DNA of 23,058 bases from a virus: positions 1 to 23,058 of the IMG/VR virus record IMGVR_UViG_3300023443_000433. One strand, 5' to 3'. The stretch's first letter is position 1. The number at the start of each line of letters is the position of its first letter. The notes under the pieces were generated by a model. That model was not told the origin of the DNA and did no database searches. It was given only the letters and a program-made list of their open reading frames with translations. Of the stretch, positions 3,304 to 18,709 are shown piece after piece. Position numbers and translations under genes: made by a program.

Positions 3304-3854
3304 GGGTCAGCAGGTCCATCTGTATCAACTTCAGTGTCACCGTTACCGTCAACACCTTGACTGTGAATGTGTGTATCAAATGTGATACCATTATTAACCA
3401 AATCCCCGTTAATTGTCACGTCGCTATTTATTGTCATCGTGGGCACCGTGATTGTTGCAGCCCCACTTGCAGTGATAATCACATTCACAGCTTTTGAAAT
3501 CGTAACATTAGCTTCACTTGATATTTCTATGTTACCGGCATTGTCCATAAATATGAATGATCCACTGACATAATTAGCAATACCATGTTCACCGGCAGCA
3601 GCGTCAGGTTTGATGCGATTTTTTGGATCAGATGCAAACCCAATACCGTTACTTTCATTACCGTTTTGAGCAAACAAAGCAACTTGACTACCGTCAGGTG
3701 GTCTACCAATTGTACCGTATGGAATGAACACCTGACCTTTAGCATTTGATCCCATATATACGAATTGACCTTGCAAGAAATCCCCAACGTTTGATGATGA
3801 CGCCAATCGTGCAATTTTGAAAATCGCCTTGATTCGTTGTATTAAATCTTTCAT
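3300..3854 (-). CDS. Baseplate central spike, Mu gp45-like (gpV equivalent)
   Basis: A 184-residue spike protein, as a trimer forming the membrane-piercing tip of the tail. Residues about 20-90 form the OB-fold-like part (QGQFVYMGSN, VFIPYGTIGRPPDGSQVALF, and an NRIKP segment). Residues about 98-155 are short beta repeats rich in Ile, Val, Thr and Asn (IEISSEANVTIS, INSDVTINGDLV), as expected for a trimeric beta-helix. Near the C-terminus, residues 160-166 read DTHIHSQ. In Mu gp45 and P2 gpV an HxH motif at this place binds an iron ion at the spike tip. The remainder (DGNGDTEVDTDGPADP) is an acidic end. ATG overlaps the hub gene stop. Confidence 0.92.
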   Translation of the reverse strand: MKDLIQRIKAIFKIARLASSSNVGDFLQGQFVYMGSNAKGQVFIPYGTIGRPPDGSQVALFAQNGNESNGIGFASDPKNRIKPDAAAGEHGIANYVSGSFIFMDNAGNIEISSEANVTISKAVNVIITASGAATITVPTMTINSDVTINGDLVNNGITFDTHIHSQGVDGNGDTEVDTDGPADP

Positions 3855-4972
3855 CTGATGAACCCTCTATCTGGTGGGGGTTCTTGAGTTTGTAAAGCAT
3901 CACCTTGTTGTGCACGTCTTGAATCACCCTGCGTTGATGTTCTGACATTGTATGCTTCAGGTGGTGCAAGTGTAATAGTCGTTCGTGTGCCTGAATTTCG
4001 ATCAACAGAATAATTAACTGACCGGATAAGAAACACACCAGTCATGCCTGAAAAATCGTCATTGACCTTGGTCAACTGACCGATATCCCACAGCATATCT
4101 GATGCACGTTCGACACCTGCAACCACAGCTTTATATGATGTTGACCGGGCACGACGAATATTTAATTCCTCAATTGAACGATCTTTTGTTTCAATTTCTG
4201 TAAAACTTTCTTCTGATTGAATTTCAATAAAACGACTTGATCTGATTTGATCATCAATCGATTCGCCTTTACGATCAACACCAAATTCATAATCAGCATC
4301 AGGGTCAGCACCAAAATTATCCTGTGATCGTGATGAGTATTTACCAAACCGTTGTGAATGATCAAATCGAACAGATGATGATATGATATTGTTTTCAGGA
4401 TTATTACGACGATTGATAATCAATCCGGGCTGTATCACTTCCACAGGTCTGAAGATTTCTAAATTTCCGCGTCCATCTGGTATTAAATAAACCTGTCTTT
4501 TACGTGCAAAGTCAGTCAAAAAAATCATACAATTTTTACCAGCATCTGCACCAAAAAATTCTAGTTCACCGAATTCTTCAAGGTTCGGAACACTGTCTAT
4601 CACACCGATGGCTGCACCCAATGCACTGATAACTTTTGTTGCAAGTCCTGACATTGACAATGGTCCCTGTATGCTCTTTACAGCATCAGGCATACTTGAA
4701 TCAATCAAGTCACCCGTATTGTCACGACCAGCAACCGTGATGGTGTCAACACCGTCTTCAACAGCCGATTCAAGGGTGTCACAGAACCCTGTTAATTTGG
4801 GTTGTCCCTCGATAAGAATCTGCACAGCATCACCTGCACGAACAGGATAATTGGCAGGAATAACATTGCTTGATGAAAATTGAAATTTGCCTGAATTTTC
4901 GTCAATCGTTCTTGTCAATCGGGCAGTTTTCCAGTTGTTAAATATTTTACCATTTACTGAAATTTCAAACAT
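3851..4972 (-). CDS. Baseplate hub protein, Mu gp44-like (gpD/gp27 equivalent)
   Basis: About 373 residues, the usual length of the Mu gp44/P2 gpD hub family that forms the trimeric ring between tube and spike. Family features: N-terminal FEISVNGKIFNNWKTARLTRTID, the ANYPVRAGDAVQILIEG strand pair, TGFCDTLESA, then ITVAGRDNTGDLIDSS, which is a hallmark (GR..tgdLvDcs). Later NIRRARSTSYKAVVAGV and LWDIGQLTKVNDDFSG fit the third domain. The C-terminus is a low-complexity tail (GDSRRAQQGDALQTQEPPPD). The start is ambiguous: GTG 4978, ATG 4975 and ATG 4972 are consecutive codons after AGG; I use the third because spacing is best. The stop of the preceding gene falls within these codons. Confidence 0.92.
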   Translation of the reverse strand: MFEISVNGKIFNNWKTARLTRTIDENSGKFQFSSSNVIPANYPVRAGDAVQILIEGQPKLTGFCDTLESAVEDGVDTITVAGRDNTGDLIDSSMPDAVKSIQGPLSMSGLATKVISALGAAIGVIDSVPNLEEFGELEFFGADAGKNCMIFLTDFARKRQVYLIPDGRGNLEIFRPVEVIQPGLIINRRNNPENNIISSSVRFDHSQRFGKYSSRSQDNFGADPDADYEFGVDRKGESIDDQIRSSRFIEIQSEESFTEIETKDRSIEELNIRRARSTSYKAVVAGVERASDMLWDIGQLTKVNDDFSGMTGVFLIRSVNYSVDRNSGTRTTITLAPPEAYNVRTSTQGDSRRAQQGDALQTQEPPPDRGFIR

Positions 4973-4974
4973 CA

Positions 4975-6303
4975 TCACACCTGAAAAATCTTGAAGTCAT
5001 TAACTAACCCTGCCGATGATTGGGCAGTATTAAGATTTGCTACATCAACTGCACGTACCGCAAGTTCATCAGAATTGGTAAATTCTTCAGCATAAAGCAA
5101 ATATGAACGTACAAATGACGATGTAGGTGAACCAGTATTATCCGTGATAATTTGAAAAGTTTCTTGTTCTTTTTGACCCAAAACATCCAATGCTGATAAA
5201 CGAGCGGATTCAACTGTTGATCGTATCAACGGATTAGATTGAATTAAATCATGATTAAATGTTTCAAGTCGCATAATACGTTCATGCAAATCTTCAATCA
5301 AGCGACGTGTTGCAATGATTTCATCATCTGTTGTATAGGATCGTGCAGCAGCAACCTCATATAACCCAACTAATGATGCAATTCGATTCGCTTGTGCATT
5401 TACTTCACGCGCTGTATTACGATCAATCCGCTCCTTTGTAGTTTCAGGCCATAAAGGTATTTCTGATGAAGTTGGGTCAATAGAAGTCGCACGATTAACA
5501 TCATTGATTGATAGAGATAATCCACCCCCTAAATTAGTTAATAACGAAAGTGGTTCAATTCCATTACCAAAAGCACTCGCCCTGCTTAACCCCAAACTGA
5601 TTTGTTGCCACAGTCCCGGTAAATCAGGAACACCCGCAAAAGTAAATAATCCTAAAGAATCTGCATCACGTACCAATTTTGCAGCATTTAAATCAACAGT
5701 ATCAGTAATTCTTAATACCTTTTCTAAATCTTCAACAGGAAGAGTAGTTTTAATCGTATTACTAATATTCTTAATAATATTATTTAAATCACCAGTTGCA
5801 GCAACAGAATTAGCTGATGTTTGTGGTGCGGGATAATCGGAAGCAAATACATCTTCAATTGCTTTCCTTGCTTCATCCCCGGCTTGATAAACATCTTCTA
5901 TGCCTACACGTGACACAGACGGTCCCGGTGCTGGTCGTCCTGCAAAAAACGGTATTACATAGCTGATTTCACCAACTGTCTGTTGACTGGCATCTTTGGA
6001 ATAGGCACCGGCAAACACTTCAATGACACCGAATACAGGCATTGATAAACGACCTGAACCTTCTTCATTCAATGCTTGTTCAAGACGATCTGCACGCGCA
6101 ATAAAATCAGCACCATGAACAAAAGCCCTGATCGAAAACTTTGGGGGTATTCGACCTTGATCTTCAACAAATCGTTCACCTGAATTCACATATTCATGCA
6201 GAACTAATTTACGGCCAATTTCAGAAGACGATTCTGAACGTACCGAAAATGAAACACCTTTGAAAGATGCCGGTAAAAGCTGTGATGTTCTATTATCTGC
6301 CAT
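4975..6303 (-). CDS. Tail protein with DNA-circularisation N-terminal domain (Mu gp43-like)
   Basis: A 442-residue protein matching the DNA_circ_N family of Mu gp43. Despite the family name, its place between tape measure and hub points to a tail-tip or tube-initiation role. The N-terminus is diagnostic: LLPASFKGVSFSVRSESSSE, GRKLVLHEYVNSGERFVEDQG, then a PPKFSIRAFVHGADFIARADRLEQAL segment, GSGRLSMPVFG (family pattern: G.L.HP..G...V) and ISYVIPFF. From about residue 150 on it is mostly alpha-helical and variable, with segments such as EATSLVGLYEVAA-like and DDEIIATRRLIEDLHERIMRL that could form coiled coils. No strong ribosome site precedes ATG 6303 (only GGTGG), so it may be coupled to the tape measure gene ending three bases upstream. 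Confidence 0.9.
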   Translation of the reverse strand: MADNRTSQLLPASFKGVSFSVRSESSSEIGRKLVLHEYVNSGERFVEDQGRIPPKFSIRAFVHGADFIARADRLEQALNEEGSGRLSMPVFGVIEVFAGAYSKDASQQTVGEISYVIPFFAGRPAPGPSVSRVGIEDVYQAGDEARKAIEDVFASDYPAPQTSANSVAATGDLNNIIKNISNTIKTTLPVEDLEKVLRITDTVDLNAAKLVRDADSLGLFTFAGVPDLPGLWQQISLGLSRASAFGNGIEPLSLLTNLGGGLSLSINDVNRATSIDPTSSEIPLWPETTKERIDRNTAREVNAQANRIASLVGLYEVAAARSYTTDDEIIATRRLIEDLHERIMRLETFNHDLIQSNPLIRSTVESARLSALDVLGQKEQETFQIITDNTGSPTSSFVRSYLLYAEEFTNSDELAVRAVDVANLNTAQSSAGLVNDFKIFQV

Positions 6304-6305
6304 TG

Positions 6306-8114
6306 TTAACCACCAGCAAGGGCCATATTCCCACCACCATTTAGATTAATTTCAGCACTATCAATTTTTGTACCGTTGGCAGCACTGATACCAATATTAC
6401 CAGATACATTAACTTGCTGTGCATCCTTTTTACCTGCTACCGCATTTGCATTATCCATACCGAAAGTCGAACCAACGGCAGACAACCCTTCAGCACCAAC
6501 ATCAAAAATATCAGACCCGGTTGCTTTCACAGCGTCTAATGCACCAGCGAAATCACCTGATAACAATGCTGATCCTGTTTTAACAATACCACGCAATGTC
6601 TTCAAAAGCAGTCTCACGGGTGTTAATACAGCTATAACTGCAAAACCCATGCGTTCGATAAAACCACCTAGACCATCAAAATCACTACCCGCATCACCAA
6701 CAAGACCCAACAATTCACCTAAAGGTAAAAGAATTGCACCGATATCAGAAGCCATATCACCAAGCATCGTAATCACAGGGTGACCTGTTTCCAACCATTC
6801 ACTGAACACAACAGAAAGTGCAGTCACACCTGCGATGATAGCGACGATAGGTAACGCAAACGTGGCAAGGAACGCGGTCAGGGGTGCCATAGCAGCCATC
6901 AACACACCCACTGTGGCAGCAAGCCCCGTGAAGACCACGATCAATGCCGCAAAACCTGCCCCAAACTTAATCAAGGTGGGGTTTGCTTTTGCTAATTCAC
7001 GAAATATCCGCATAAACCCTGAAAACAATTTAGCCATATTCACAGCGAATGGTTTGATAACGTCACCAATTGTATCAAAAGTGTTGGTCATTGTTGTGCT
7101 GAATATCTCAAATGCTTTACTTGACCTTCTCATTTGGTTTTCAAGTTCACGCTGCATTGAACCAGCAGCTTCAGGTGACAACGCTTTATCAACGGTGCTA
7201 CCAAATAATTCAATATTTGCAATTGCCTTTTCAACGAACCTTGATGCTTCAGCACCAAATACTTTTTGCACAAATTTAGTGCGCAATTCCGGTCCCATTT
7301 TTGCCATTTTTTCAAGCTGTGCATTAATCGCACCGATGGGATCAGTCATCAATTTTGTTGTCATACCCGGCATTTTTCGCATCTGACGAATCATCATGTT
7401 CATACCAGATGCTGCAAGTTGCGGTGTGACTTCAATCTGATCAGCAAAACCAGCAAGGGCTGCTGACACTTCCGGTGGAATTTCCAAAAGCTTAAATGTG
7501 CCTGAAAGCCGTTCTATGATTTCGATCATACGGGCACCGTTGGCACTGGTGGTGTCAGCAAGAAAGTTTGTACTATCAAGCAACCGTTGACTTTCTTCAC
7601 CCATCAAACCCATCTTGGCTTGAATTGACCCAATGGCACGACCAGCTTCTTGATCAAGCATATCAAACGCAATAGCGGTACGTGATGTCATCATCAGGAA
7701 GTCTTCCATGTTCCCGATTGACACACCAAGCTTGCCACCTTCAAACGCCATTTCTGCAAGACCACGTTTGGATTTACCAAGTTTTTCAGACATCGATTCA
7801 AGTTGATCTTCGAACTGTAAAAGACCGGCTGCACTGACATCTGTCACACGTCCAATATCACTCATTGCATCTTCCATATCAGAAGACACTGATATGACAT
7901 GCTTCAAAGCAGCACCTAAACCCAACGCACCAAGAGCACCTTGCAAATTCTGTGCCTTGTTCGCTAGATTATCCATTTTTTGTGACATTTTCAGAACAGC
8001 CTTTTGAGCACGTCGCGCCTGTCCTGCGAATCGTTTTGTTGATTTAGAAATCTTTTGTATAGGGACTGAATATCGATCTAAAATTTCATAGATATATGAA
8101 ACTGTATTAGTCAT
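6306..8114 (-). CDS. Tail tape measure protein
   Basis: A 602-residue protein with tape measure traits. It has a basic helical N-terminus (KISKSTKRFAGQARRAQKA), then the PhageMin_Tail-type core, with DMEDAMSDIGRVTDVSAAG, LAEMAFEGGKLGVSIGNMEDF and TRTAIAFDM-like segments. A long hydrophobic stretch lies at about residues 385-437 (GFAALIVVFTGLAATVG, then ALPIVAIIAGVTALSVVF), consistent with membrane insertion during DNA ejection. The C-terminus is Gly/Asn-rich. At the roughly 1.5 angstrom per residue rule of thumb, this length predicts a tail of about 90 nm; that is inference. Its ATG overlaps the stop of the predicted chaperone frameshift extension (ATGA), matching the usual chaperone to tape measure order. 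Confidence 0.93.
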   Translation of the reverse strand: MTNTVSYIYEILDRYSVPIQKISKSTKRFAGQARRAQKAVLKMSQKMDNLANKAQNLQGALGALGLGAALKHVISVSSDMEDAMSDIGRVTDVSAAGLLQFEDQLESMSEKLGKSKRGLAEMAFEGGKLGVSIGNMEDFLMMTSRTAIAFDMLDQEAGRAIGSIQAKMGLMGEESQRLLDSTNFLADTTSANGARMIEIIERLSGTFKLLEIPPEVSAALAGFADQIEVTPQLAASGMNMMIRQMRKMPGMTTKLMTDPIGAINAQLEKMAKMGPELRTKFVQKVFGAEASRFVEKAIANIELFGSTVDKALSPEAAGSMQRELENQMRRSSKAFEIFSTTMTNTFDTIGDVIKPFAVNMAKLFSGFMRIFRELAKANPTLIKFGAGFAALIVVFTGLAATVGVLMAAMAPLTAFLATFALPIVAIIAGVTALSVVFSEWLETGHPVITMLGDMASDIGAILLPLGELLGLVGDAGSDFDGLGGFIERMGFAVIAVLTPVRLLLKTLRGIVKTGSALLSGDFAGALDAVKATGSDIFDVGAEGLSAVGSTFGMDNANAVAGKKDAQQVNVSGNIGISAANGTKIDSAEINLNGGGNMALAGG

Positions 8115-8278
8115 CGCTTCACCCTTTGTCTGATATTTTTCAGTTCATCGTCAATAACTGAAAGCTGATATGTGGTTGTCTCAAGACATTCTTTAATGCT
8201 TATAGCACCTTCACTACCGTAAGCGATTCGGGTGCAGCTTCTGACACGTTCTTGAATGCTTTGTCCAACCCTATGCCA
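8111..8278 (-). CDS. Predicted -1 frameshift extension of the tail assembly chaperone
   Basis: In the -1 frame relative to the chaperone, the sequence is open from a TAA near 8297 down to TGA at 8111-8113, with no ATG, GTG or TTG in that stretch. It can therefore be expressed only by frameshifting or as part of a fusion. The seven-T run at 8278-8284 allows a slip after codon 162 of the chaperone. The extension is then 55 residues, from WHRVGQSIQE to LKNIRQRVKR, giving a fusion of about 217 residues. The part beyond the chaperone stop (GAISIKECLETTTYQLSVID) looks like real coding sequence. Its stop overlaps the tape measure ATG as ATGA. In lambda (G/GT) and P2 (E/E+E') the chaperone pair just before the tape measure gene is made this way. 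Confidence 0.72.
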   Translation of the reverse strand, partial: WHRVGQSIQERVRSCTRIAYGSEGAISIKECLETTTYQLSVIDDELKNIRQRVKR

Positions 8279-8763
8279 AAAAAAGCGCAGTATTTAACCG
8301 CCGCATCAATTTTGTCTTCAGGGTGTAATCGTTTCCATGCACCTTCAAGAATACGAACGCCTTCAGTAGTACAGATAGGATCACCACTTTTATTAGATAC
8401 CATAAAACCAAAGACCTTGACTAATTCTTCAAGATCATCGGATGTGCCAAGTGACATTTTTATGAATTCTGCAAAACCTTCAGCTTCTTTATCATGATCT
8501 TCTTCTTTGGTTTGGTGTAATGGTTTAACTTCATCACCACCAATCAAATTGTCATCCTTAGCTTCTTTAATGACATCACGTAAATCCTTCAACATACCAG
8601 CAGCTTTAATTTGCCCTGACGATATAAATTTACGCAGCTTCATATAATAACCGTCGTAACCTTCACCGCATTCATGAAAAGTCAAAACAGTCACAGGGTC
8701 ATGACACCCTGCAACCTCAATTGACTTGCGAAGTTTAAACTCAAATGTTCCATCTGCAAGCAT
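8200..8763 (-). CDS. Tail assembly chaperone (Mu gp41-type / gpG-like)
   Basis: A 187-residue, acidic, helical protein between the tube and tape measure genes, the standard location of the chaperone that coats the tape measure before tube polymerisation. The N-terminus (GTFEFKLRKSIEVAGCHDPVTVLTF) matches the family pattern of a short beta start followed by helices. The rest is rich in Lys, Glu and Asp (KEAKDDNLIGGDEV, DHDKEAEGFAEFIK). The zero-frame product ends at TAA 8200-8202; a longer fusion product is predicted through the T7 site in codons 161-162. A purine-rich site (AGGGGA) precedes ATG 8763 inside the end of the tube gene. No enzymatic motif is expected or seen. Confidence 0.8.
   Translation of the reverse strand: MLADGTFEFKLRKSIEVAGCHDPVTVLTFHECGEGYDGYYMKLRKFISSGQIKAAGMLKDLRDVIKEAKDDNLIGGDEVKPLHQTKEEDHDKEAEGFAEFIKMSLGTSDDLEELVKVFGFMVSNKSGDPICTTEGVRILEGAWKRLHPEDKIDAAVKYCAFFGIGLDKAFKNVSEAAPESLTVVKVL
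8278..8284 (-). promoter_or_regulatory. Slippery heptamer T TTT TTT (programmed -1 frameshift site)
   Basis: In the chaperone frame the codons read GCT TTT TTT GGC, so the seven T's sit exactly in the X XXY YYZ phase. This is the only classical slippery heptamer I find in the stretch where both frames are open. The same heptamer is the frameshift site in P2 gene E. No obvious strong downstream hairpin was seen by eye. Confidence 0.65.
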
Positions 8764-9178: not shown

Positions 9179-10771
9179 TTACAAAGTGATTTGCGTGCCG
9201 GTCTGACCAACCGTAAACGCCAAAGACAGGTTATAATTGATCGTGCCCAATTGGGTCACGATTGGTAACGGACCATTGATCGTGACCGTGCGAGTGGCAA
9301 GGCTGACCGTCACAGTAGTGTTGGCATTGAAGAATGCTTCAGCATCTGGACCAGCTTGTGTTAATGCCTGATCAGCAAGCACACGATAGATGTTGAGTAA
9401 TTCACCCTTGATGCCAAGTTCATTGGTCATCGCACGACCTTCAACAATATTACCTTCAGTCAGACGATGTTGAGAAAAGACTGCCTTCAGGGTACGGAAG
9501 AAGATTTCACGACAAACAGAACCGGTATCAACGAAGTTCAGAAAATGAAATGAATCGTTCGGATTACCGGCTGAATCTGTTATAAAAGTCGTCACAACTG
9601 GACCCATCAGCATTGCATTACCAACTGTATTCACACCAAACGATGTGAAACCATCATTTTCAAGTTCAATCTGTTCAGTCGAATTATACAGATTAAGTGA
9701 AGATGTCACAGGTGTGTCAGTCAATGGAGTGTTGAAGTATGGCATTGATGCTAAACCCGGACCACCAATAGCATCATTCGGTGCATTCTGTGCAACGATC
9801 AAATCAGCAATCAAGGCACCTGTTGTCAATCGTTTAGCACGAATAGCCATAAAGAACGACGCCACCCAATCAGCAGGGATCAGAATTGCGGGACCCTTGT
9901 CAAGCGTGGCGGCATTGATGTTGTTACCCATGATAACAAGTGATTGACTGTTAAGCGGTGCAACAAGTGATGTATTGTTTGCGAATGTGTCTGTACTACC
10001 CTGAAAAATCATACCATCAAGGATGTCATTCGCAACATTGAAACGACTATCCATTTCAGTGACAATGACAGTGCGTACCCATGATTCAGGCCATCCAACA
10101 CCAGTATACCGACGACCATCAATAGCATCTAAGATTGATGTCAACACAGGGTCATTTGCACCACTTGTGAAAGCTGTGACGGCAACTGTCACACCAGCAA
10201 CAACGCCTGTTACCCTCACACCAAAGTCATTACCAATGGTGCCTTTATCTTTAGCTGTGACCGTGACCGTATCTGTCACAACAGCATTTGTAAACGGTGG
10301 GTCTGTCAAGGCAGTAAGTGCAGCATCCAATGCTGCCGCAATAACTGTGTTTGCATCACCACTTGATACAGCAACCGTAACAGGGAATTTCTTTTCATCA
10401 ACGAATGAAACGATATATGTACCGTCAGCAGTCGCTGTACCTGTAAACTGAACAGTCGAATCAGCAGCAACACCGGTCCCGCTTTCATCAATTGCAATGA
10501 CATCAAGCGTTGGAAGGATACCACCGTCAGAAACTTGTGCGCCTGAACGCCATGCAAGAATTTTCTGATAAAGATCAGCAGTACCAAACAGGGTCTGAAG
10601 TACAGCATCTGTTGCCAGATGCATATCAATGTTCAATGCTTCACTGACAGCAGCACCACCGGGACCAGTTTGACCAAAGATGATGCAACGACGATCTTCA
10701 AAAGCGTCAACAAGTGCAGCCGGTAAAAGCTGAATATTGACACGCGGGTTGGAAGTAGGAGAACCAGCCAT
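9179..10771 (-). CDS. Contractile tail sheath protein (Mu gpL-like)
   Basis: A 530-residue sheath protein, slightly longer than Mu gpL (about 495). The N-terminus (SPTSNPRVNIQLLPAALVDA) is typical: Mu-type sheaths start with a short arm and an INf..ipp..r.PG-like segment. The next lines (RRCIIFGQTGPGGAAVSEAL, LYQKILAWRSGAQVSDGGIL) and LDVIAIDESGTGVAADSTVQ fit. Residues about 105-205 hold an Ala/Thr/Val-rich beta domain (TGTATADGTYIVSFVDEKKF, KDKGTIGNDFGVRVTGVVAG), known in this family as a surface domain. The C-terminal half carries VCREIFFRTLKAVFSQHRLTE and a closing NYNLSLAFTVGQTGTQITL strand that joins neighbouring subunits. Its ATG overlaps the preceding stop (TAATG). Two possible SD segments, AAGGA and AAGG, precede it. 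Confidence 0.95.
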   Translation of the reverse strand: MAGSPTSNPRVNIQLLPAALVDAFEDRRCIIFGQTGPGGAAVSEALNIDMHLATDAVLQTLFGTADLYQKILAWRSGAQVSDGGILPTLDVIAIDESGTGVAADSTVQFTGTATADGTYIVSFVDEKKFPVTVAVSSGDANTVIAAALDAALTALTDPPFTNAVVTDTVTVTAKDKGTIGNDFGVRVTGVVAGVTVAVTAFTSGANDPVLTSILDAIDGRRYTGVGWPESWVRTVIVTEMDSRFNVANDILDGMIFQGSTDTFANNTSLVAPLNSQSLVIMGNNINAATLDKGPAILIPADWVASFFMAIRAKRLTTGALIADLIVAQNAPNDAIGGPGLASMPYFNTPLTDTPVTSSLNLYNSTEQIELENDGFTSFGVNTVGNAMLMGPVVTTFITDSAGNPNDSFHFLNFVDTGSVCREIFFRTLKAVFSQHRLTEGNIVEGRAMTNELGIKGELLNIYRVLADQALTQAGPDAEAFFNANTTVTVSLATRTVTINGPLPIVTQLGTINYNLSLAFTVGQTGTQITL

Positions 10772-13326: not shown

Positions 13327-13760
13327 TATCTCAACTCCGCTGGAATGCGATATGATGCAATTGTTATTTTAACACCAACATCATTTGTTTTTGCGTTAAC
13401 CCATTTTCCTATGGGAATAATCCAATTCAAACCAATCGCTATAAAATTTGAAGCCCGTATCATCTGAGGATTAACAATTGAGGGATTTGCAACCAATGAA
13501 TCAGCTTCATCAGCTTCATAAATTTCAATGTCAGCAGGATCGACATTACTGACATTTTTATCAGTGCTGACAATGATGTCAGTAATGACAATGAATTTGT
13601 CTTGTTCAGGTGTTAGAAAATTGACGGCTGTATCTACAACTAATAATTCTCTTTCAAAAGGTCTGCTGTAATCAAGCGGTGAAACAACAAGTTGACCAAA
13701 ACGCGTGACTCTAGCACTGTTATCTGACTTTGAATCTTGAATTACCGCAGGTACGGGCAT
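13326..13760 (-). CDS. Accessory virion protein, paralogue 3 (unknown function)
   Basis: A 144-residue protein not assigned to a known family. I use ATG 13760 because it is part of a TAATG overlap with the preceding gene and follows AGAGG at ten bases; an in-frame upstream ATG (13790) would extend 30 bases into that gene. The N-terminus (PVPAVIQDSKSDNSARVTR, then FGQLVVSP) matches the shared motif of its two neighbours: VIQDxxSxNSA-V...(N/G)-L. The rest (DKFIVITDIIVSTDKNVS, DIEIYEADEADS, NWIIPIGKWVNAKTND) is beta-rich with no membrane segment. Position between capsid and connector genes suggests capsid decoration or head-fibre role; that is inference. Confidence 0.82.
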   Translation of the reverse strand: MPVPAVIQDSKSDNSARVTRFGQLVVSPLDYSRPFERELLVVDTAVNFLTPEQDKFIVITDIIVSTDKNVSNVDPADIEIYEADEADSLVANPSIVNPQMIRASNFIAIGLNWIIPIGKWVNAKTNDVGVKITIASYRIPAELR

Positions 13761-14293
13761 TATTCGGCAACCTCTAAAGATATGACACAAGTAATCAAAC
13801 CGGTTGCTTCTACACGTTCAAAAGCAATTGCTTGACCTTGCGGGATGATAATATTGCTAGTGGTTTTGAGTTGTTGAAGTTTATCAGCCGGGTTGCAATC
13901 TTCAAAAAATAATGTACCACCATCTGCCAATCCAGTTATATCAACACCATCTTGAATAATTGCAGTAGGACCTGCCGTACTACCTAATTTACGGCTGGTT
14001 ACCTCTGAGTCTGAACCACCTACAGCAACACCAGTTACCCGTTTGTAAAGTAGTTCAGTAATAACTGAACTCTTTATACGAACATCAGTAATAAACAAAT
14101 CCTTGGTACCTGTGTTTTTCAAATAAAAAAATTTATCATTTGCAGCAGTTGGTGTTACTTCAAAGAAAACAGACCATTGTCGGCCTTCTGTATTGGCATG
14201 TTTATCTTCAGCTTGGACAATAGAGAATGTTAGTAATCTATTTTCAAGGTCAACTTCTACAACTCTACCATCTGGTCCTTTAATTTTGGTCAT
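13760..14293 (-). CDS. Accessory virion protein, paralogue 2 (unknown function)
   Basis: A 177-residue protein with no recognised catalytic motif. The N-terminus (TKIKGPDGRVVEVDLENRLL) carries a version of the cassette motif: (D)GR...-V...NRL. The middle has FYLKNTGTKDLFITDVRIKS, a beta-sandwich-like pattern seen in phage decoration and fibre proteins. Later there is TLFFEDCNPADKLQ and NIIIPQGQAIAFERVEATG, also typical beta strands with a Pro/Gly turn. ATG overlaps the stop of paralogue 1 (ATGA), and its stop overlaps paralogue 3 (TAATG). No signal peptide or membrane segment is visible. Confidence 0.85.
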   Translation of the reverse strand: MTKIKGPDGRVVEVDLENRLLTFSIVQAEDKHANTEGRQWSVFFEVTPTAANDKFFYLKNTGTKDLFITDVRIKSSVITELLYKRVTGVAVGGSDSEVTSRKLGSTAGPTAIIQDGVDITGLADGGTLFFEDCNPADKLQQLKTTSNIIIPQGQAIAFERVEATGLITCVISLEVAE

Positions 14294-14883
14294 TTAGGTA
14301 ACTCCCGGAAAAAAACAACCTGAACTGCCGTATTTTGATTAGTATTTCCCACAGGTGGGGTAAATGCCACAGCAAATGATGTACCGGGAGGAACAACCAC
14401 AGGGCCAGCCGGAAAAGTTCTAAATAATGCACCTTCAGGAATTAGCGTAATCGGCGCATTCAAACCATCTGTAATAGTTTTACCTTCACCCCCTATTTTG
14501 ACTATTGCAGTTAATGGTTTAGGACTACCGATATTTAAATTGATACCTACTGAATCAACACCGTCGTCAACCAAAGTACCCGAAGTTGCACCGGTATTAA
14601 ATTGATTGAATGAATCACCAGAACCGCCTGTAGATTTTCCATAAGTGGCAGTGATACTTTCAACGACCCAGGGAACGGTATCAGTATTTTTTGCGAACAA
14701 AATCCATGATATACTATCACTTGTTAGGTTTATACTTCCCGTAGTGAAAATATATGTATCACCATTTAGTGACGATTCAATGACGGCAGCTTTAGAAATA
14801 GCATCCGTGTGAAGACGATTATTTGCACCAACCTTGGCACTATTACCTGATCGACCATCTTGAATTACAGTATCACCGCTCAT
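14290..14883 (-). CDS. Accessory virion protein, paralogue 1 (unknown function)
   Basis: A 197-residue protein. The N-terminus (SGDTVIQDGRSGNSAKVGAN, then NRLHT) is the clearest version of the cassette motif. An N-terminal DG-SG..AKV-.-NRLH-type segment is common in phage virion proteins of unclear role found near capsid genes; that is recollection, not a search. The rest is beta-rich and Gly/Thr/Ser-rich: TDSISWILFAK-type, VVESITATYGKSTGGSGDSF, and ALFRTFPAGPVVVPPGTSF, ending AVQVVFFRELPK. Overlaps by ATGA with both neighbours indicate a co-translated block. No cysteine is present. Confidence 0.85.
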   Translation of the reverse strand: MSGDTVIQDGRSGNSAKVGANNRLHTDAISKAAVIESSLNGDTYIFTTGSINLTSDSISWILFAKNTDTVPWVVESITATYGKSTGGSGDSFNQFNTGATSGTLVDDGVDSVGINLNIGSPKPLTAIVKIGGEGKTITDGLNAPITLIPEGALFRTFPAGPVVVPPGTSFAVAFTPPVGNTNQNTAVQVVFFRELPK

Positions 14884-15344
14884 ACGTCGCTCCTGTCAAT
14901 ATCAGTCTCATTTGCTTCTTCAAATCTGTCATTTAATAAACGTAATTCTTGATCTATTGATTTCAAAGTGACAATCAATGAATTTCTGAATTCTTGTGTA
15001 CTAATCAAATTTGATTCTCGTTCAGTAATGCTTATATCAGAAGCTGATGCAGGCGAGAACCCATGAACAGCCATAGGAATGACATTAACTAAACCATCTA
15101 CATTAGGGCAAAATGCCCACGCCCCTAAATCACCTTCGTTGTTACGAAGTGGATCACCATTTCTCTTTACTATATTAAATGCATCGTGATCATTTTCAGG
15201 CTGATCTGGTTGAACAGCCAAAAAAACATCACACACACCTGTATTTTCAACAAGTATCTGAACACCTACTTGAACCTCTGAAACGGCATATAAGTCGATC
15301 CAAGTATTTTTAGGTAATTTAATATTTGTTAATGTATTTGCCAT
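14880..15344 (-). CDS. Accessory virion protein at the head of the cassette (unknown function)
   Basis: A 154-residue protein without a recognised family. The N-terminal two-thirds are beta-rich (NTLTNIKLPKNTWIDLYAVS, QVGVQILVENTGVCDVFLAV), resembling the NTG-strand pattern of paralogue 2. The C-terminal 45 residues are helical and probably coiled (QEFRNSLIVTLKSIDQELRL, LNDRFEEANETDID). A beta domain followed by a coil would suit a trimeric fibre or spike on the capsid, but this is inference. It lacks the VIQDG motif of the next three genes. No clear ribosome site lies near ATG 15344; the nearest purine-rich run is inside the hairpin upstream. The stop overlaps paralogue 1 (ATGA). Confidence 0.8.
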   Translation of the reverse strand: MANTLTNIKLPKNTWIDLYAVSEVQVGVQILVENTGVCDVFLAVQPDQPENDHDAFNIVKRNGDPLRNNEGDLGAWAFCPNVDGLVNVIPMAVHGFSPASASDISITERESNLISTQEFRNSLIVTLKSIDQELRLLNDRFEEANETDIDRSDV

Positions 15345-15386: not shown

Positions 15387-15707
15387 TTATTTGCTTGCTG
15401 CTTTAAGGTCAGCTTCAGCCTTCTTCAAAGCCTCATCTTTGACCTTCAGGTCAGCTTCAGCTTTCTTCAGGGCTTCGTCTTTGGCCTTCAGGTCAGTTTG
15501 CGCCTGTTCCAAAGCTTTAGAATCAGCATCAGAAACATCGACTGATTTCATATCTTTGATGGGTTTAACGAAACCACGTGCTTCAAGCTTTCCAGCTTGT
15601 GTTTTGGTTAAGGTCAATTGAGTACCGACTTCCATTTCTTTTTCACCTGATGTGAAATAAAGACCGGATTTAACGACCTGATGAGTTGCGCGTTTAGGTG
15701 CAGCCAT
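15387..15707 (-). CDS. Small protein with heptad-rich repeat tail, downstream of major capsid
   Basis: About 106 residues from ATG 15707, chosen because GGAG lies nine bases upstream; an earlier ATG at 15713 is too close to the same site. The N-terminal half (KRATHQVVKSGLYFTSGEKE, EVGTQLTLTKTQAGKLEARGFVK) has the pattern of a small phage domain often found near capsid genes: G-.y..G..i.Lt...A..L...G.v..i. The C-terminal half is a Lys/Ala/Glu/Asp-rich coil made of 14-residue units (DLKAKDEALKKAEA, then DLKVKDEALKKAEA, then DLKAASK). The gene follows the major capsid gene within 15 bases. It could be a capsid accessory or fibre protein. Function not recognised. Confidence 0.8.
   Translation of the reverse strand: MAAPKRATHQVVKSGLYFTSGEKEMEVGTQLTLTKTQAGKLEARGFVKPIKDMKSVDVSDADSKALEQAQTDLKAKDEALKKAEADLKVKDEALKKAEADLKAASK
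15390..15494 (-). repeat. 42-bp tandem repeat encoding a 14-residue coiled-coil unit
   Basis: Two and a half copies of a unit encoding DLK(A/V)KDEALKKAEA. The unit is two heptads long, so the copy number sets coil length without breaking frame or heptad phase. The DNA copies differ at several third positions (for example AAGGCC versus AAGGTC), so they are not freshly duplicated. Confidence 0.75.
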
Positions 15708-15721
15708 TGTCATTTACTCCC

Positions 15722-17287: not shown

Positions 17288-17803
17288 TTATTCAGGCATG
17301 TCAGCAGGGGCAGTATTGCCATCTGCATCATTGTTGATATTAAACGGTAAACCGTGACCGGAACCGCAACTTGCAGCCATGTTCTGAAGCTTGTCCAGTG
17401 GTATGGCATTTAAAGTATCTTCATCAAGATCAGGATACTTTTTCGAATTGGTGATGACCTTGACCGCATCAGATTTTTCAGCTTCCGAATTGGCACAAAG
17501 CTGATCCTGCAACGGCTTGATTGCATCAGCAACGGCTGTTGCAATAGCATCAGTAATTTCTTCGTTGACAACAGCCGGTTTACCCTTGTTGGGGTCATCA
17601 GCATTAACAGCCGGTTTACCCTTGTTAGGGTCATCAGCATTAACAGCAGCAGCCGGTTTACCCTTGTTGGGGTCATCAGCATTAACAGCAGCAGCCGGTT
17701 TTTCAGTCATGAGCTTGTTATACGCTGCAAGCAATGCGTCTTCATCCATACCTTTGGTATCGATTCCGACCGCATTCAACGCAGCACGAATTTTCTTTTC
17801 CAT
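17288..17803 (-). CDS. Predicted nested scaffold protein (in-frame internal start)
   Basis: An in-frame ATG at 17803 (residue 303 of the protease/scaffold protein) is preceded by GAGG with eight bases of spacing, as good as any site in the window. Starting here would give 171 residues: a helical N-terminus (EKKIRAALNAVGIDTKGMDE), the repeat linker and the helical C-terminus, without the protease domain. Lambda encodes its scaffold (Nu3) as an in-frame nested product of protease gene C, so this organisation has a known precedent. The break point coincides with the end of the DUF2213-like domain. Confidence 0.6.
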   Translation of the reverse strand: MEKKIRAALNAVGIDTKGMDEDALLAAYNKLMTEKPAAAVNADDPNKGKPAAAVNADDPNKGKPAVNADDPNKGKPAVVNEEITDAIATAVADAIKPLQDQLCANSEAEKSDAVKVITNSKKYPDLDEDTLNAIPLDKLQNMAASCGSGHGLPFNINNDADGNTAPADMPE

Positions 17804-18709
17804 AGCGTCTACCTCTTTCGAGTTGGTTTTAGGAATAAACGTGACTTTTCGCTCAACTGGTAGCGGAATGCCCGTTATGGTTACGCGCCCGGAATCATCC
17901 GAACTAAACGGTACTGAGAACAGACCGGATTCTGTGTGAAAAATAACATGATCGTCAAATAATTCTTCAATCCAAACAAAGCCTGTAATTGCAGAACGTT
18001 CAAAAGCATCATGAATTGCTTGGTGAAGTTCTGAAAATGACCGACCTTCTTGATTAACACGACTATCTTTCACGTCAAGATTAACTGTTTCAACATCGAT
18101 TTTTTCACCGTTGCTATTCACAGCCATACCGACACCCTGTGATGGTTGTGCAGCACCAATACTATCAAGCAAAATTGCATCATGATCAAAGACCATGTTG
18201 CGTGCAATCATGTTGAATTCATGACCGTCTTCATTAGTTTGTGGTTCAGTGAGTTCTTCGATTTCAAGAAAAATGCCAGTTGATGTATGTATTGGTCGTG
18301 GGCTTTTTGACGTTTCGACTTCATTGATACGATCAAGTAAACGACGACCCTTTTCACTTTTCAGTGCTTCCTGAACATTAATGATCTTATCGACCTTAAC
18401 CCGATTGCCGATCTTTTCAGCATTGTCATTAAATGCCCCTGCATGAAAATTGTGAATTGCTTCAGGATCATTGGCAGAAACAAATTGACCGTTTGCATTC
18501 ACAGGGTGTTCAATAGGTGCAAGCGTTCGGTTCAATCCTTCAAACGACGCATCAATTTCAGCAGCAGGATATAGAATGCCGTTCATAACGACGTTATCAG
18601 GTAGCGTGAAGGATGAAACAATGATGTGTTCAACACCATCAATATTTGTGCGTGTGACAGCCTTTGGATTAACCAACGATGTACAGCGTAAGAATTTTCT
18701 TTTAAGCAT
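17288..18709 (-). CDS. Prohead protease/scaffold protein, DUF2213-like
   Basis: A 473-residue protein resembling the DUF2213 family, which occupies the protease/scaffold position upstream of the capsid genes. The N-terminal about 290 residues hold the folded domain: GVEHIIVSSFTLPDNVVMNG, NRTLAPIEHPVNANGQFVSA, and HTSTGIFLEIEELTE followed by ARNMVFDHDAILLDSIGAAQ, where a conserved DHDAIL-type segment is typical. The HPVNA and FDHDAI histidines are candidate active-site residues; that is inference. After residue about 302, a helical scaffold-like part begins (MEKKIRAALNAVGI), then a tandem-repeat linker (about 336-379), then a helical C-terminus (ITDAIATAVADAIKPLQDQL). A nested start within the gene is described separately. 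GAGG precedes ATG 18709. Confidence 0.82.
   Translation of the reverse strand: MLKRKFLRCTSLVNPKAVTRTNIDGVEHIIVSSFTLPDNVVMNGILYPAAEIDASFEGLNRTLAPIEHPVNANGQFVSANDPEAIHNFHAGAFNDNAEKIGNRVKVDKIINVQEALKSEKGRRLLDRINEVETSKSPRPIHTSTGIFLEIEELTEPQTNEDGHEFNMIARNMVFDHDAILLDSIGAAQPSQGVGMAVNSNGEKIDVETVNLDVKDSRVNQEGRSFSELHQAIHDAFERSAITGFVWIEELFDDHVIFHTESGLFSVPFSSDDSGRVTITGIPLPVERKVTFIPKTNSKEVDAMEKKIRAALNAVGIDTKGMDEDALLAAYNKLMTEKPAAAVNADDPNKGKPAAAVNADDPNKGKPAVNADDPNKGKPAVVNEEITDAIATAVADAIKPLQDQLCANSEAEKSDAVKVITNSKKYPDLDEDTLNAIPLDKLQNMAASCGSGHGLPFNINNDADGNTAPADMPE
17573..17703 (-). repeat. 36/42-bp tandem repeat array in the scaffold linker
   Basis: Units begin at 17573, 17609 and 17651 on the plus strand, with a partial unit at 17693-17703. 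The first is 36 bp, the next two 42 bp; the extra 6 bp add Ala-Ala. Copies are nearly identical at the DNA level (differences include TTGGGG versus TTAGGG), implying recent duplication or gene conversion. Each encodes VNADDPNKGKPA with or without AA. All units are multiples of three, so frame is kept. Confidence 0.92.
17812..17815 (-). promoter_or_regulatory. Ribosome binding site of the nested scaffold start
   Basis: GAGG on the minus strand, eight bases before ATG 17803, inside the protease/scaffold gene. The surrounding residues (NSKEVDA) form a likely interdomain linker, so the codons are free to encode a site. Confidence 0.6.

Follow-up and report, generated by a model that had tools for sequence, protein, structure and literature searches.

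A very probable −1 programmed frameshift in the tail assembly chaperone gene of a Mu-like contractile tail

The gene at 8763-8200 is, with very little doubt, a tail assembly chaperone gene whose −1 programmed frameshift would give two proteins, one of 187 and one of 217 aa. It lies in a stretch of 23,058 nucleotides from a virus record, here called the window. The tail genes are on the minus strand and are ordered as in a Mu-like contractile tail module (Table 1), with a Mu Gp48-like protein encoded beyond the gene for the gpP/gp44-like hub. The chaperone gene stands between the genes of the sheath (phrog_165) and the tape measure (phrog_28), and the same is found in the relatives. The tube protein is a probable assignment, made from position alone. 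Other parts of the window also show distinctive sequences. Tandem repeats of 36-42 bases at 17570-17701, within the ORF 17288-18709, encode repeated NADDPNKGKPA units, and a tandem 42-base repeat at 15406-15496, in the ORF 15387-15713, encodes a heptad-like KAEADLKxKDEALK stretch. Three neighbouring ORFs (154-197 aa each), which overlap in the ATGA manner and lack a Pfam match, occupy 13760-15344.

Table 1. Tail module genes and elements of the putative frameshift site in the window.
Feature	Coordinates	Strand	Evidence or remark
Tail sheath protein	9179..10771	-	phrog_165, E 3e-41
Probable tail tube protein, 132 aa	8766..9164	-	Placed between sheath and chaperone, as in relatives; without family match
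Zero-frame tail assembly chaperone (G/E analogue), 187 aa	8200..8763	-	ORF; homologues in 72 loci; position between tube and tape measure
Slippery heptamer T_TTT_TTT	8278..8284	-	In phase within GCT TTT TTT GGC
−1 frame extension (T/E' analogue)	8111..8278	-	55 codons 8278-8114 + TGA 8113-8111
Zero-frame-only tail, 25 codons	8200..8277	-	Overlaps −1 extension
Tail tape measure protein, 602 aa	6306..8114	-	phrog_28, E 7e-38; PF10145 (PhageMin_Tail), E 4e-12
DNA_circ_N hub-type protein	4975-6303	-	
gpP/gp44-like hub	3851-4978	-	

Near its end, the chaperone gene reads ...TGC GCT TTT TTT GGC..., and the seven T are placed in the phase GC[T TTT TTT] GGC, that is, as the phase-correct slippery heptamer described in the initial annotation. 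The other elements of that description were also recovered, namely a zero-frame stop (TAA at 8202-8200) 25 sense codons past the slip and a −1 frame open for 55 codons, whose TGA shares an ATGA with the tape measure start at 8114. The extension had been regarded as free of ATG, GTG, and TTG; one GTG does occur, at codon 53 (about 8122-8120), so near the end that it is of no consequence. The gap of 85 bases between the zero-frame stop and the tape measure start is indeed the largest of the window, but the claim that the operon has almost no others was slightly overstated, as gaps of 36, 42, 60, and 61 bases are also present. Upstream of the heptamer, the −1 frame opens just 9 bases before it. 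The predicted products are a 187-aa zero-frame protein and a 217-aa fusion, and the extension protein includes WHRVGQSIQERVRS... A Mu-type −2 shift was considered for the same gene and rejected: at the slip, the −2 frame is open for just 2 codons and the +1 frame for 1.

The heptamer by itself is weak evidence, because the genes of the window contain 16 in-phase heptamers, and T7 runs number five. Its significance derives from position, open frame, and conservation. Synonymous shuffles leave the −1 frame open over the overlap region in 1.2% of cases, and base shuffles leave it open further downstream in 9.8%. The other T7 runs were discarded as frameshift sites, since at 14314, 15225, and 4523 the −1 frames close within 1-7 codons and the run at 14131 is out of phase.

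Relatives were collected from viral contigs using as bait the chaperone and then the hub and sheath proteins. The chaperone was present in 72 of the loci examined, in each directly downstream of sheath and tube; 3 run to the contig end, leaving 69 for counting the extension, and removal of copies more than 95% identical gave 60 distinct sequences. A homologous −1 frame extension is found in all 69 loci long enough to show one, and no stop breaks it in any of them (60 distinct). It measures 51-68 codons across the distinct relatives, and in 54 of these the start of a long ORF lies no more than 30 bases from where the extension ends. The order sheath, tube, chaperone, extension, tape measure is common to the relatives. 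Together with the homology of the extension in 69 related loci, this conserved order upholds the reading, already proposed from the window, of a frameshifted chaperone pair before the tape measure gene. In 27 of the 60 distinct relatives the zero-frame tail has exactly 25 codons, and in the others it has 2-27. In the window and in the relatives inspected, the zero-frame stop falls within the bases encoding a conserved Ala/Ser-Leu/Ile-Thr/Ser stretch of the extension, and this location of the stop may explain the fixed length of the tail. In one relative of 64% GC, the extension is separated from the tape measure gene by a homing-endonuclease-like ORF (L019:4356-4853) that contains HNH_3 and AP2 domains and whose first residues resemble the tape measure start.

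The slippery codon pair is under selection in this family. A canonical X_XXY_YYZ heptamer occurs in 58 of the 60 distinct relatives, at the same codon pair in 56 and one codon further downstream in two (L084 and L087, both of the T type). The seven-T run itself, whose conservation had been suggested as a check, is kept in only 16/60; what the relatives retain is T_TTT_TTY or A_AAT_TTY, with six T followed by C in about half of them. Phe-Phe is encoded at the aligned codon pair in 45/60. Here the first Phe codon is TTT in 45/45, as compared to 61/113 at three Phe columns used as controls (Fisher p 3e-10, a value to be taken as indicative since the sequences, being related, are not independent). 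T is also the last base of the codon before it in 45/45 (background 28%), even as the residue of that codon varies among Ala, Ser, Cys, Thr, Val, and Arg, and the second Phe codon is unconstrained (30 TTT and 30 TTC over all 60). A fixed TTT, a preceding T, and a free second Phe codon are the pattern of the X_XXY_YYZ rule as read from the codons. In 12/60 the first residue is Asn, encoded by AAT in 12/12, and A_AAT_TTY results in 11. The only two relatives without a canonical heptamer (L089 and L103) both retain GCT TTT, which would permit slippage of a single tRNA.

The pattern is not a single inherited accident, as indicated by the GC-rich relative L019 and by the tree of the fusion proteins. 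Outside the slip site, L019 uses 2 TTT vs 42 TTC, yet its slip site reads TCT TTT TTC. On the tree, the heptamer class must have changed at least 15 times, and A_AAT_TTY must have been gained or lost at least 4 times. Since the heptamer types (T_TTT_TTT, T_TTT_TTC, and A_AAT_TTY) changed often and both slipperiness and frame were kept, selection acts on the frameshift itself. It has an even chance of being true that one chaperone lineage repeatedly swapped its slippery site between tandem-Phe (T_TTT_TTY) and Asn-Phe (A_AAT_TTY) heptamers, partly by one-codon slides as in L084 and L087, and that L089 and L103 use a reduced, single-tRNA slip. If this repeated swapping is true, the frameshift would be selected regardless of the site at which it occurs and of the residues encoded there.

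These observations also bear on other explanations of the locus. Transcriptional slippage, in which RNA polymerase adds a U within the T7 run and some mRNAs thereby fuse chaperone and extension in frame, would yield a nearly identical protein, and the window does have the seven-T run for it. It is nevertheless very unlikely: about half of the relatives have T6C and 11/60 have A_AAT_TTY, without a long homopolymer and with the frame relation unchanged, and the feature that is kept is the codon-phase X_XXY_YYZ rule of tRNA slippage rather than the length of a run. The same T6C and A_AAT_TTY sites speak against an error of sequencing or assembly that broke a single gene in two. Errors are common in homopolymers, and the sequence is that of a metagenome-type virus contig, but the frame break is shared by 69 loci and the zero-frame stop lies exactly 25 codons on in 27 distinct relatives, so that the relatives refute this explanation and its probability is negligible.

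That the extension is a separate gene with its own start is scarcely credible. The −1 frame does contain ATT and ATA codons, and the extensions of some relatives include an ATG or GTG; however, no ATG, GTG, or TTG precedes codon 53 of the 55 in the window's extension, the −1 frame is open only from just ahead of the heptamer, and conservation of the extension sets in near the slip, ahead of any internal start in most relatives. A separate gene would also leave the 45/45 TTT unexplained. A chance coincidence of a random heptamer with an untranslated open stretch could appeal to the abundance of in-phase heptamers in the window, but the relatives contradict it as firmly as they do an assembly error, the extension being conserved as a protein in 69/69 loci at one frame offset. 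Its probability is equally negligible.

A −1 programmed frameshift would proceed as follows. Most ribosomes would read the chaperone gene to the stop at 8200 and produce the 187-aa protein. A minority would pause with two Phe-tRNAs on T_TTT_TTT and slip back by one base; both tRNAs would re-pair with TTT, and the −1 frame would then be read for 55 codons to give the 217-aa fusion. We infer that both proteins are made, as well as their ratio and their binding partners. By analogy with gpG/gpGT of lambda and gpE/gpE+E' of P2, the N-terminal part common to both products most likely forms a coat on the tape measure protein, while recruitment of tube subunits most likely falls to the C-terminal domain of the rare product. 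Because of these two roles, the ratio of the two products would matter for tail assembly.

Stimulatory signals are modest. In the window, no RNA structure folds below the shuffles (fold z −0.23 and −0.13) and no SD-like site is recognisable. Family-wide, SD-like matches upstream of the slip amount to 4.08 vs 3.48 in synonymous shuffles (sd 0.15), and folding downstream of the slip is stronger (mean z −1.13 vs −0.18 to −0.68 at control positions of the same genes). Both excesses are modest and present in some lineages only; GAGGTG or GGTGA precedes the heptamer in several lineages. It has been reported that U_UUU_UUU is less shifty than A_AAA_AAG in E. coli (PMC5009743), and therefore the frameshift efficiency in the window may be modest, although E. 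coli may not be the host.

The two C-termini differ in their predicted structure. AlphaFold2 models the zero-frame protein with confidence as far as about residue 160, save for a weak stretch around 69-82, and residues 168-187 are predicted to be disordered (pLDDT about 31). The extension modelled alone is predicted to form three helices, with a mean pLDDT of 83. A PDB fold search and VIA-align 2 gave only low, scattered matches (best Z 3.2), which show neither a known nor a new fold. The weak Foldseek rows include a Mycobacterium phage tail assembly chaperone for the chaperone (E 0.13) and a "tape measure chaperone" and a "tail assembly chaperone" for the extension (E 3-5). The chaperone had no match in Pfam, PHROGs, or NCBIfam, and neither chaperone nor extension, in the window protein or in the other members tested, matched a named chaperone family above weak noise. 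A tblastn search of 50,697 annotated phage records found no match to the chaperone, to two of its relatives, or to the sheath, and for the fusion one chance-level row (E 8); genome contigs searched with chaperone and sheath patterns contained no relative. The assignment to the tail-assembly kind of frameshift rests on how it works and not on sequence family.

Among known systems, P2 E/E+E' (T_TTT_TTG) shares with the window a contractile tail, a U-rich in-phase heptamer near the gene end, and the order tube, chaperone, tape measure. The P2 extension has 57 codons as compared to 55 in the window, and both run into the tape measure start. P2 E is of 91 aa vs the 187 aa of the window chaperone, and the zero-frame tail past the slip is longer in the window than in P2. 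In lambda the slip site is G_GGA_AAG, and the tail is long and non-contractile, unlike the contractile type of the window; the two are likened by logic, not by homology. The likeness consists in a common short chaperone and a rare C-terminally extended one encoded just before the tape measure gene (PMC5009743). In lambda, gpG and gpGT bind the tape measure, and the T domain binds the major tail protein (PMC5009743).

Different phages use −1, −2, or +1 shifts, that of Mu being −2 (PMC5009743; see also PMC2628397). The tail and baseplate genes of the window are Mu-like (gpP/gp44, DNA_circ_N, and Gp48) and alike in order, whereas the frameshift of Mu gp41 is −2 and the extension of the window is in the −1 frame. 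Profile comparisons of the window chaperone with Mu gp41, and of chaperone and extension with P2 E/E', were not significant for either part. Since, moreover, no catalogued family matches, common descent with Mu gp41 or P2 E/E' is neither shown nor excluded. In the Burkholderia phage KS10 (NC_011216), one of the loci collected, a +1/−2 frame is open across the last part of the chaperone gene as far as the tape measure start (L023:1022-1207) and encodes ...SLREMPKVQLMAQAADLERLHKAQRAEARKRR, which resembles a chaperone extension. The KS10 paper reports no frameshift before the tape measure gene (PMC2628397), and this open frame suggests that a Mu-like −2 shift may have been missed there.

The finding adds to the known tail-assembly frameshift a large chaperone family unseen by current profile libraries, and indicates that −1 shifting can serve a Mu-like contractile tail module in place of the −2 of Mu. 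Automatic annotation would overlook the 217-aa protein. The 60 distinct sequences provide a natural data set on the retention of a recoding site through changes in its bases and amino acids.
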